Source of the DNA: Crocinitomicaceae bacterium
Lineage (GTDB): Bacteria > Bacteroidota > Bacteroidia > Flavobacteriales_D > Crocinitomicaceae
Length of the DNA stretch: 46,072 bases
Assembly: GCA_025210175.1 (NCBI GenBank)
Contig: JAOASF010000171.1
Location: forward strand, 1 to 46,072
Reading direction: 5' to 3'
The notes beneath the pieces were generated by a model that was not told where the DNA came from, searched no databases, and saw only the letters and a list, made by a program, of their open reading frames with translations. Made by a program: the position numbers and the translations under genes. Positions 42,089-46,072 of this stretch are shown one piece after another (position 1 is the stretch's first letter; each line of letters opens with the position of its first letter).

Positions 42089-44533
42089 ATGAATTCTAAT
42101 TTAATTTATGTGCCAATCGGTTTGGCAATTGTTGGTTTGCTTTTCATGCTCGTGAAAATGTCATGGGTGAAAAAGCAAAGCGCTGGAAATGATAAGATGC
42201 AAGGTATTTCTAAGAGCATCAAGGAAGGTGCAATGGCATTCTTGTCTGCCGAATACCGTTTGTTGGCAATCTTCGTAGTAATCGCTTCAGGTGCATTGTT
42301 CTGGATTTCAAGTGTTGTTGAAACAACTTCTTGGATGATTGTTCCTGCATTTGTAGTAGGTGCTGTATTCTCAGCTGTTGCTGGAAACATCGGTATGCGT
42401 ATTGCGACAGATGCGAACGTTCGTACAACTGAAGCTGCAAGAACTTCTTTGCCGAATGCATTGAAAGTTTCTTTCGGTGGTGGTATCGTAATGGGATTAG
42501 GAGTTGCTGGTTTGGCAGTTCTTGGTTTGTCTTTGTTCTTCATGGTCTTCATTGGAAGCTTCATGACAGAAGGAGGAAACTTCTACAACGACATGACAAT
42601 GGTATTGGAAGCTTTGGCTGGTTTCTCTTTGGGAGCTGAGTCGATTGCTTTGTTTGCACGTGTTGGTGGAGGTATTTACACGAAAGCTGCTGACGTTGGT
42701 GCTGACTTGGTAGGTAAAGTTGAAGCTGGAATTCCTGAGGATGATCCGCGTAACCCTGCAACTATTGCGGATAACGTAGGTGATAACGTAGGTGACGTTG
42801 CTGGTATGGGTGCTGACTTGTTCGGTTCATACGTTGCAACTGTATTGGCATCTATGGTTTTGGGTAACTACATTATTAAAGACATGTCGGATGCGGCAGG
42901 TTCTCAATACTCAGATTCATTCAATGGAATGGGACCTATCCTATTGCCAATTATGATTGCTGGAGTTGGTATCATCGCTTCTATCATCGGTACTTTCTTG
43001 GTACGTGTTAAAAACAATGACGCGAAAGAAGCGGAAGTTCAAAAAGCATTGAACATTGGTAACATCGCTGCTATTGTTCTTTCTGCTGCTGCAGGTTGGT
43101 TCTTGGTTGACATGATGTTGCCAGAAACTATTAAAGGAATGAAATTCTTCGGTGAAGCTGCAAGAGATATCCCTTCACGCCACATTTTCTACGCTACATT
43201 GGTAGGTTTGGCAGTTGGTTACTTGATCTCTTTCTTCACAGAATACTACACAGCTCTTGGTAAGAAGCCAGTTTTGGACATCGTTAAAAACTCTTCTACA
43301 GGTGCTGCAACAAACATTATCGCTGGTTTGTCAACTGGTATGATCTCTACTTTCTCTTCAGTTATCTTGTTCGCAGTTGCGATCTGGGGTTCTTACGAGT
43401 TGGGTGGATTCTACGGGGTAGCTATCGCTGCTTCTGCTATGATGGCAACTACAGCTATGCAGTTGGCAATCGATGCTTTCGGACCTATCGCTGATAACGC
43501 AGGTGGTGTTGCTGAGATGTCTGAATTGCCAGACGAAGTACGTGGACGTACAGACGTTTTGGATTCAGTAGGTAACACAACTGCTGCCGTTGGTAAAGGA
43601 TTCGCTATTGCTTCTGCTGCATTGACAGCCTTGGCTTTGTTCGCTGCTTACGTAACATTTACAGGTATCGACGGAATTAACATCTTCAAAGCAGATGTAT
43701 TGGCTGCCTTGTTCATCGGTGGTATGATTCCAGTTGTATTCTCTGCATTGGCGATGAAGTCGGTAGGTAAGGCTGCAATGGACATGGTAATGGAAGTACG
43801 TCGTCAGTTCAAGGAAATTCCAGGAATTATGGAAGGAACTGGAACGCCAGAGTACGGAAAATGTGTTGAGATCTCTACAAAAGCTGCATTGCGTGAAATG
43901 ATGTTGCCAGGTGCAATCACTATCATTTCTCCACTTATCATCGGATTCACAATGGGTGCTGAGGCTCTAGGAGCCTACATGGCAGGTGTTGCTGTTTCAG
44001 GTGTTCTTTGGGCAATCTTCCAAAACAACGCTGGTGGTGCTTGGGATAACGCGAAAAAATCTTTCGAGGCAGGTGTTATGATCAACGGAGAAATGACGTA
44101 CAAAGGTTCTGATGCTCACAAAGCGGCAGTGACGGGAGATACAGTTGGTGATCCATTCAAAGATACTTCTGGTCCATCGATGAATATCTTGATTAAATTG
44201 ACTTGCTTGGTAGGTTTGGTTATCGCTCCAATCTTGGGTAACGGTCACCACGGTGATTCTGCAAGCGCAGCTGGATGTGTGAAATCAGAAGCTTCTTGCA
44301 AGAAAGATAAGTCTTGCAAAAAAGATGCGAAGTGCACGGCTGATGCGAATGAAACAATGAAAATGTGTTGCAAAGACTCAGGAAAAGAAATGGCATCTAT
44401 TACAAAAGAAGAGTGCATGAAAATGTGCGAAGAAAAAGGATGTACAGCTGAGCAAAAAGCAGAATGCATGAAAAACTTCGACGAGAACGGAAACTTCGTT
44501 GGCGTGAAGAAAGAATGCTGCAAAAAGCACTAA
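42089..44533 (+). CDS. hppA: membrane-bound ion-pumping pyrophosphatase with a Cys-rich tail
   Basis: The 814-residue inner-membrane enzyme couples PPi hydrolysis to pumping of protons or sodium. Catalytic loops are [48 protein letters not shown] and [34 protein letters not shown] has Ala where the potassium-independent type has Lys, so it should be the potassium-dependent type. The conserved body ends near residue 720 ([10 protein letters not shown]). The last 90 or so residues are an unusual soluble tail with 12 cysteines, many lysines and several Met ([25 protein letters not shown]). In this family the C-terminus faces outward, so the tail may bind metal there. Confidence 0.95.
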
Positions 44534-44673: not shown

Positions 44674-44681
44674 TATATTTG
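44674..44681 (+). promoter_or_regulatory. -7 box of the histidine operon
   Basis: TATATTTG matches TAnnTTTG. It lies 14 bases before the leader-peptide ATG at 44696. The -33 box is weak (TTTC at 44652-44655). Confidence 0.55.
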
Positions 44682-44695
44682 CCCAAAAAAAGGAA

Positions 44696-44749
44696 ATGAT
44701 TTTATTCAATCTACATCATCGTCATCATTACAAATGCCCTCAGGCGTAA
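44696..44749 (+). CDS. hisL: histidine operon leader peptide
   Basis: A 17-codon frame reads MILFNLHHRHHYKCPQA and stops at TAA 44747-44749. Four of five consecutive codons are His (44714-44728), as needed for sensing charged histidine tRNA by ribosome stalling. It lies between the promoter box and a terminator, directly upstream of hisG, with AAAAAAAGGAA just before the ATG. It has no function beyond regulation. Confidence 0.85.
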   Translation: MILFNLHHRHHYKCPQA

Positions 44750-44819
44750 TGGTGTTTCTATGTAGATAAGTAAAAGAAAATAACATTAAACCGTCTGAGT
44801 AAAATCAGGCGGTTTTTTT
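44739..44819 (+). promoter_or_regulatory. histidine operon attenuator (antiterminator and terminator)
   Basis: Terminator: AAACCGTCTGA (44788-44798) pairs with TCAGGCGGTTT (44805-44815), one G-U, followed by seven T. Antiterminator: CTCAGGCG (44739-44746), inside the leader peptide's last codons, pairs with CGTCTGAG (44792-44799), one G-U. A ribosome stalled on the His codons would leave 44739-44746 free and prevent the terminator. A ribosome reaching the stop codon would cover it and allow termination. All parts of classical attenuation are present. Confidence 0.85.
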
Positions 44820-44855
44820 ATTCCCACGATTTTGCTCAGACCCATTTCAAAAAGA

Positions 44856-45713
44856 ATGAGCACAATTAGATTAGCACTGCAAAAGAAAGGTCGACTTAGT
44901 GAAAAGTCGCTCGAATTACTGAAATCGTGTGGTATAAAAATCTCGAACGGAGATCGTACCCTCAAAACCCAATCTTCCAATTTCCCAATTGAGATCCTCT
45001 TTTTGAGAGATGATGACATTCCCCAATATGTCGAACAAGGTATTGCTGATTTGGGAATTCTAGGTCAAAACGAGGTTTGGGAAAAGAACAAGAAGGTAGA
45101 GGAAATTCTAGCATTGGGATTTGCGGGCTGTAGAATGTCGATTGCCGTACCTAAAGAACTAGACTACCCAGGTCTGTCGTATTTCAATAACAAACGCATC
45201 GCAACTTCCTACCCAGGGATTTTGGCCAAGTACTTAACCGACAATGGAATCAATGCTGAATTGGAAGAAATTGGAGGAAGTGTTGAAATCGCAACTGGGA
45301 TTGGTTTGGCAGATGGAATCTTCGATATTGTTTCCACGGGTTCAACCTTACTCATGAATGGTCTCAAAGAGGTCGAAACGGTAGTGAAAAGCGAAGCAGT
45401 TTTGATCTCCAATCCGAATCTTTCGTCTGACAAAACTGCCTTATTATAAAAACTCGTTTTTAGAATACGAGCGGTATTAGCGGCAAAGGAAAACAAATAT
45501 TTCTTGCTGAATGCTCCCAATGACAAAGTAGTAGCGATTTCTTCTGTATTACCCGGTATGAAAAGCCCAACGATTCTACCCTTGCAAGATTCTGGTTGGT
45601 CAAGTATTCACTCAGTCGTGGAAGAGGATCAGTTTTGGGAAAGAATTGACCAAATCAAAGCATTGGGTGCTCAAGGAATTCTTGTTGTTCCAATTGAAAA
45701 AATGATCCTATGA
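44856..45713 (+). pseudogene. hisG: hisG, ATP phosphoribosyltransferase, interrupted by one in-frame TAA
   Basis: The first enzyme of histidine synthesis joins ATP and PRPP. From ATG 44856 (MSTIRLALQKKGRLSEK) the frame codes for a complete catalytic part, including GSVEIATGIGLADGIFDIVSTGSTLLMNGL at the PRPP site. It then meets TAA at 45447-45449 (codon 198). The same frame continues without shift into KLVFRIRAVLAAKENKYFLLNAPN ... GAQGILVVPIEKMIL, the C-terminal regulatory domain of long-form HisG, and stops at 45711-45713. Read through, the length is 285 codons, normal for the long form. The stop replaces one codon (family usually Asp/Glu in ALLxKLxFRI). The 197-residue piece might still act like a short-form HisG. 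Otherwise the gene is inactive or the TAA is a sequencing error. Confidence 0.85.
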
Positions 45714-46072
45714 AACTGATAAAGTATCCAGCGAAGAAAGACTGGAAAGAGTTAACAAAAAGGCCCGCTTCAGATTTGAGTCAGTTGCAAGCTGTGGTCG
45801 ATGAGATCTTCCAAGAAGTGCAAAACAATGGAGACCAAGCATTGATTGCTTTGACCAAGAAGTTTGACAAATGTGCTTTGGAACAAGTGGTCGTTCCAGT
45901 CGAAAAAGTGTCATCTCGCATCAACAAAGACTTGCAAAATGCGATTGATATCGCTTATCGAAATATCAAGACTTTCCACAGAACGCAGATTCAAGAAAAA
46001 GAGCCTAAAGAAACGACGGCTGGTGTGGTTTGCTGGAGAGAGGCAAGACCAATCGAGAGTGTTGGCATGTAT
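45710..46072 (+). CDS. hisD: histidinol dehydrogenase, N-terminal part (cut by window end)
   Basis: From ATG 45710 (overlapping the hisG stop as ATGA) 121 codons are open to the window edge. The product reads MKLIKYPAKKDWKELTKRP, then AVVDEIFQEVQNNGDQALIALTKKFDK, RNIKTFHRTQIQEKEP, GVVCWREARPIESVGMY. These match the start of HisD, which oxidises histidinol to histidine; the usual next residues (IPGG) lie beyond the edge. Gene order hisG-hisD and the 4-base overlap fit a histidine operon under the attenuator upstream. Confidence 0.93.
   Translation, partial: MKLIKYPAKKDWKELTKRPASDLSQLQAVVDEIFQEVQNNGDQALIALTKKFDKCALEQVVVPVEKVSSRINKDLQNAIDIAYRNIKTFHRTQIQEKEPKETTAGVVCWREARPIESVGMY

Follow-up and report, generated by a model that had tools for sequence, protein, structure and literature searches.

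The DNA in front of hisG in a contig of a Crocinitomicaceae bacterium (JAOASF010000171.1, 46,072 nt analysed in full, hereafter the window) is very probably a ribosome-mediated, leader-peptide transcription attenuator of the his operon, and the sequences compared here indicate that such an attenuator is the usual state before hisG in Bacteroidia. The parts named in the original prediction, i.e., a promoter box, a 17-residue leader with four His codons, an antiterminator and a terminator, can all be read within 44674-44819 (Table 1). The conserved anatomy runs beyond the end of that segment, up to the hisG start codon region (about 44856-44866), and two of its features had been overlooked: a conserved strand that follows the terminator (strand 5) and a near-leaderless start of the leader, free of any Shine-Dalgarno site. 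We tentatively propose a four-state attenuator, in which the 5′ arm and loop of the terminator may pair with a strand that would otherwise shut the hisG start, so coupling transcription to translation initiation; we see this as a serious possibility rather than as the established reading.

Table 1. Features of the his attenuator and its operon in the window. Helices are written by the strands that form them (for example, 2:3).
Feature	Position	Strand	Sequence	Remarks
Promoter box, TAnnTTTG (-7)	44674..44681	+	TATATTTG	read directly; fits the element of the Bacteroidota housekeeping sigma factor
Leader peptide ORF	ATG 44696 to TAA 44749	+	MILFNLHHRHHYKCPQA	17 codons, then stop; read directly
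1:2 hairpin	44709..44767	+	ATCTACAT/ATGTAGAT and CATCATTAC/GTAATGGTG	His codons in the 5′ side, strand 2 in the tip
Strand 2, antiterminator	44739..44746	+	CTCAGGCG	complements CGTCTGAG (44792-44799), 8 bp including one G-U
Intrinsic terminator, strands 3 and 4	44788..44815	+	AAACCGTCTGA-GTAAAA-TCAGGCGGTTT	loop GTAAAA; T-run 44813-44819
Strand 5	44828..44841	+	GATTTTGCTCAGAC	complements 44793-44806 over 14 bp (terminator 5′ arm, loop and 2 nt)
Strand 6, at the hisG start codon	44857..44866	+	TGAGCACAAT	complements 44829-44838 at 9/10 positions
hisG (ATP phosphoribosyltransferase)	44856..45449	+		the regulated operon starts with this gene
Next gene of the operon	45710..46072	+		open at the end of the window; probably hisD, judging by position and sequence

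Our identification rests on the arrangement of these parts. An ORF with four His codons, all CAT (44714-44728), lies between promoter and operon, a terminator stands before the first structural gene, and a covarying antiterminator excludes that terminator. Both helices need strand 3 and are therefore mutually exclusive, as had been claimed, and the modelled ribosome stalls give matching outcomes. Compared with shuffled sequences, the attenuator fold has z = -7.26, with no shuffle equally good. We used constrained folding, an equilibrium calculation for the RNA made so far in which the footprint lengths are approximate. A ribosome footprint on any of the four His codons, with strand 3 out, gave an antiterminator probability of 1.00, and free RNA or a ribosome at the leader stop gave 0.00, with the terminator forming; in the model, a stall thus frees strand 2 and a ribosome at the stop codon masks it. 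At equilibrium the terminator is the more stable of the two helices, so that switching must be kinetic, as it is in other attenuators.

From these modelled states we infer how the element would respond to histidine in the cell. Transcription would begin about 10 nt ahead of the leader ATG. While charged His-tRNA is ample, the ribosome would reach the leader stop and cover strand 2, leaving strands 3 and 4 to make the terminator. When charged His-tRNA is scarce, the ribosome would stall on the His run, hairpin 1:2 would open and strand 2 would pair with strand 3; with 2:3 formed, RNA polymerase would read through into hisG. On a leader that carries no ribosome, hairpin 1:2 would sequester strand 2 and the terminator would form.

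Within the order, 73 of 245 genomes yielded hisG; the DNA upstream of it was compared among these and in a broader set of loci from the class and phylum. A His-rich leader precedes hisG in 71 of the 75 order-level regions and at 75 of 80 named Bacteroidota loci, including those of Flavobacterium, Fluviicola, Empedobacter, Epilithonimonas, Elizabethkingia, Nonlabens, Taibaiella, Proteiniphilum and several Bacteroidales; it was not found at two Prevotellaceae among the 80. When at least four His are required within eight codons, 65/75 order-level and 70/80 named loci still qualify; control DNA just further upstream then gives 0/74 and 0/76, the reverse strand none and shuffles 0.000. Because relatives carry His leaders and the controls carry none, chance is excluded for the leader of the window. 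A laxer criterion (three His) places a leader at 50 of 69 class- and phylum-level loci, a count in which one class-level locus (L081) was misread and entered as having none; by this criterion the leader is missing in most sampled families outside the class. The leader of a genus-mate (G002) reads MNFLNLHHHHHKCPQA, which puts the Arg of the window's leader one base change away from His. The claim that his attenuation in this phylum deserves notice therefore has to be split: the element is real and conserved, but it is no rarity, being the usual arrangement before hisG in Bacteroidia on the present comparison.

The pairing is conserved as well as the peptide. On 64 aligned loci, 94.3% of cells are paired in the antiterminator, with 56 two-sided changes vs 18.8 in shuffles, and 98.4% in the terminator, with 64 vs 20.5. 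Sliding the partner by one column lowers pairing from 94% to about 40% for the antiterminator and from 98% to about 52% for the terminator. Strand 3 must match both strand 2 and strand 4, so all three vary jointly (CAGGCG/CGTCTG, CAAGCG/CGTTTG, CAAGCG/CGCTTG). At the order level, covariation of the 1:2 hairpin is weaker than that of the other helices, since its register shifts between loci, which blurs a column-wise count. The check that had been suggested, an alignment of the hisG upstream regions of relatives, thus found the His codons kept and the alternative stems covarying. This bears on the reading of the His-rich ORF as a chance product or as a working metal-binding peptide that happens to precede an ordinary terminator. 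His runs do generally bind metals, and yet we find this scarcely credible: the leader outside the His run is conserved as RNA covarying with the terminator, its position, promoter and length are alike across the class, and the controls exclude chance.

As a separate observation, one genome harbors a second, decaying his attenuator before a partial hisG (locus L077, G104:C77), whose leader ORF is interrupted by a stop after MNFT; its terminator and antiterminator are still readable.

The promoter box is shared among relatives: a perfect box is located at most 45 nt from the leader start at 62 of 71 order-level loci, as against 3% of control windows. In published mapping, transcription starts 4-5 nt after the box (PMC6847099) and the box spans -12 to -5 (PMC9723704). 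With that spacing, the transcription start in the window is predicted at 44686-44687 and the 5′ UTR at about 10 nt. No Shine-Dalgarno site was found at usable spacing before the leader of the window, and Shine-Dalgarno-like sequence is nearly absent before the leaders at large (4/71 at the order level, 1/74 and 1/50 in the other sets). Among the 60 order-level loci considered here, all with a perfect box, the distance from box to leader start is bimodal: an in-frame start lies 3-7 nt after the box in 22, and most of the remaining loci have it 14-21 nt after. Taken together with the published start, 4-5 nt past the box, these distances predict that about one third of the leaders with a perfect box are leaderless or nearly so; leaderless mRNAs, according to the F. 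psychrophilum transcriptome study, make up only 5.5% of the mapped mRNAs of that organism (PMC9723704). In one genus of the order-level set (for example, L007, L032, L034, L040 and L045), the leader start ATGAAAATG follows the box at a distance of 4 nt, and the leader is predicted to be leaderless. The same genus has kept the 3:5 helix, but in most of its loci the hisG start no longer pairs with strand 5, which is useful for separating the two proposed roles of strand 5 discussed below.

The element resembles the enterobacterial hisL attenuator (Rfam RF00514) in its promoter, its peptide with a His run, its 1:2/2:3/3:4 logic and a terminator before hisG. It differs in that the Bacteroidota leaders mostly have four to six His codons and lack a Shine-Dalgarno site, with a 5′ UTR of about 0-15 nt, in that a strand 5 able to pair with the hisG start is present here, and in that no covariance-model relation links the two. 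The His_leader model (RF00514, gathering score 49 bits) gave no match at that score, either in the window or among 20 related loci; its sole weak match, at 23.5 bits, sits on the terminator of the upstream gene, off the attenuator. At gathering and at relaxed thresholds alike, Rfam returned chance matches only for the window and the related loci. Nothing pointed to a T-box riboswitch: no Rfam family reached threshold and no T-box was among the relaxed matches. We interpreted marginal RNA-model matches (E ~1e-4) at other places in the relatives as ordinary terminators.

Part of this element has been sighted before. A 2021 transcriptome study of F. psychrophilum described a structured element 5′ of hisG, conserved in other genera and matching no Rfam family, together with strong clues for leader-peptide attenuation before amino-acid operons (PMC9723704). 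That element is probably the same as ours, given the same gene and family-level conservation. The noteworthiness originally attached to his attenuation in the phylum holds as to its presence and gives way as to priority, such an element having already been noticed in that study (PMC9723704), and the basic attenuator finding is consequently not wholly new. The main-text passages of that study contain no peptide, pairing, covariation, class-wide range, leaderless starts or strand 5 (PMC9723704), and we found no earlier description of these, as we read them from the sequences, in the literature searched. A 2010 survey places leader-peptide systems, the same kind of mechanism, in Proteobacteria, Actinobacteria and bacilli, with no Bacteroidetes case in its main text (PMC2965389), and the relevant portions of a 2021 paper on the his genes of the Bacteroidota superphylum mention attenuation for enterobacteria only (PMC8305728).

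Strand 5 has a counterpart in most Flavobacteriales loci. It is not general, however: it was significant in 3 of the 32 class- and phylum-level loci in which it was sought, and most of the other Bacteroidia orders in the sample lack it. Its complementarity to strand 3 survives changes of sequence, the loop included (GCTTGGATTAT/ATAATCCAAGC, GCTTGGAAGAT/GTCTTCCAAGC, GTCTGAGTATATC/GATATACTCAGAT), and pairs taken from the same locus outscore all 20,000 between-locus permutations. Over 55 distinct triplets, pairing in the 3:5 helix reaches 92%, and two-sided changes number 41 vs 11.3 in shuffles. In most Flavobacteriales loci, strand 5 has a second complement at the hisG start (for example, TTTGGTTTACTCA / TGAGTAAACTAAA), and this 5:6 helix is 92.7% paired, with 26 two-sided changes vs 8.3, a signal partly owed to kinship and to the anchoring of strand 5 by the 3:5 helix. 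At Leu codon 4 of hisG, the first base follows its partner in strand 5 (C-G 26, C-A 1; T-A 12, T-G 5; Fisher p = 3e-6, ignoring relatedness). Tree-independent pairs number about 14 with and 0.2 against pairing for five 3:5 columns, and 2.5 with and 0.6 against for two 5:6 columns, where pairs are few. On this comparative evidence, we regard the 3:5 helix as well supported and the 5:6 helix as moderately supported.

We hypothesize that strand 5 provides a second, translational lock. In read-through RNA in which the terminator hairpin has formed, 5:6 would shut the hisG start; in antiterminated RNA, where strand 3 is free, 3:5 would release it. Translation would then be conditional on antitermination, and leaked transcripts would be silenced. 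Our belief in the direction of this lock stops somewhat short of the halfway mark. In folding with the terminator hairpin formed, strand 5 pairs with the hisG start in most loci tested; the 5:6 pairing probability averages 0.81 and is 0.97 in the window. The modelled stalled state is less simple: most loci retain 5:6 over 3:5 (mean P 0.74 vs 0.09), and in the window, as in few loci, 3:5 wins (0.77), with the AUG mostly paired in another weak helix. The proposed ON state is thus not the thermodynamically favored one in most loci, where 2:3 and 5:6 prevail side by side at equilibrium with a stalled ribosome, and the lock would hang on the order of co-transcriptional folding.

Three other readings of strand 5 must be weighed against the lock. 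Its complementarity could be non-regulatory, a relic of duplicated sequence or a matter of mRNA stability only, which we hold to be rather unlikely. The short motif TGAGTAAA and its complement do recur, giving free matches, and many loci are related; against this, covariation extends into the terminator loop, a part that the terminator itself does not constrain, the tree-independent pairs lie nearly all in the expected direction, and the Leu codon 4 association points the same way. The pairing could instead act in trans. The terminated leader RNA, which should be abundant in histidine-replete cells, would then serve as a small RNA that silences leaked hisG mRNA through pairing of its terminator loop with strand 5 just before the hisG start codon. 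Trans-acting small RNAs derived from an attenuator are known from a rhizobial trp leader, the 3:5 helix takes in the entire terminator loop, a common seed position, and it persists in lineages that lack 5:6. The retention of 3:5, mostly in the absence of 5:6, in the leaderless genus indeed suggests that 3:5 may have a separate role, in cis or in trans. We nevertheless consider action in trans unlikely, because the conserved exclusion of 3:4 and 5:6 by 3:5 within one molecule is equally explained in cis.

A repressor binding to strands 3 and 5 as a DNA inverted repeat is far less probable still, even though the repeat of up to 14 bp adjoins the operon start. Sequence varies while complementarity is kept, and the wobble is strand-specific: G-U exceeds A-C by 81 to 20 for 3:5 (p = 7e-10) and by 75 to 20 for 5:6. 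A DNA palindrome would not show such an excess, which indicates that the pairing acts in the sense RNA, and the palindrome reading was rejected on this asymmetry. The translational lock has a partial parallel in tlrB (yxjB) of B. subtilis, where a single leader peptide governs a terminator and also a hairpin that closes the gene start in read-through RNA (PMC6851288), the dual control that we propose here. In tlrB, a tylosin-stalled ribosome is the trigger, there is no antiterminator and a Shine-Dalgarno site is sequestered (PMC6851288), whereas the attenuator proposed here would respond to amino-acid starvation, use an antiterminator and place a helix at the start codon in competition with a terminator strand.

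The locus and its host genome, a fragmented assembly of 217 contigs and 93% completeness, offer some further observations. An in-frame TAA in hisG (45447-45449) sits right at the junction of the catalytic (PF01634) and regulatory (PF08029) domains; in the relatives read, the equivalent position holds Asp or Glu (or another residue). The stop, which splits off the regulatory domain, may be an error of one base in the sequence, or it may reflect a genuine loss of feedback control or decay of the gene. HisZ is reported as not found in Bacteroidota (PMC8305728). The H+-pyrophosphatase gene at 42089-44533 ends in a Cys/Lys-rich C-terminal tail of about 90 residues (...ECCKKH), beyond the Pfam domain, which by its sequence looks metal-binding.

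Two other leader peptides are found in the same genome, both on the reverse strand of their contigs. A Trp-rich leader, MFKNSQNTNWWWHKNNSWRA (L229, G000:C186), precedes a chorismate-binding gene, probably trpE; the promoter box TAGATTTG lies a few nt ahead of this leader, and a terminator follows the leader. A Phe/Tyr-rich leader, MFNKHFHFYWYMLDKVGK (L227, G000:C196), is followed by a terminator upstream of pheA. With a Trp and a Phe leader each placed before a terminator, leader-peptide attenuation is probably a general device in this genome. No equivalent of strand 5 was seen by eye in these two leaders, and no gene of the ilvD family was found in the genome.

Taken together, the comparisons indicate that amino-acid attenuation by ribosome position is general before hisG in Bacteroidia, a class whose ribosomes do not use Shine-Dalgarno sites, and that the Rfam library overlooks it. 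Sensing on very short or leaderless 5′ ends implies tight coupling between the first ribosome and RNA polymerase. If strand 5 works as proposed, a textbook switch would have an unrecognized second lock.
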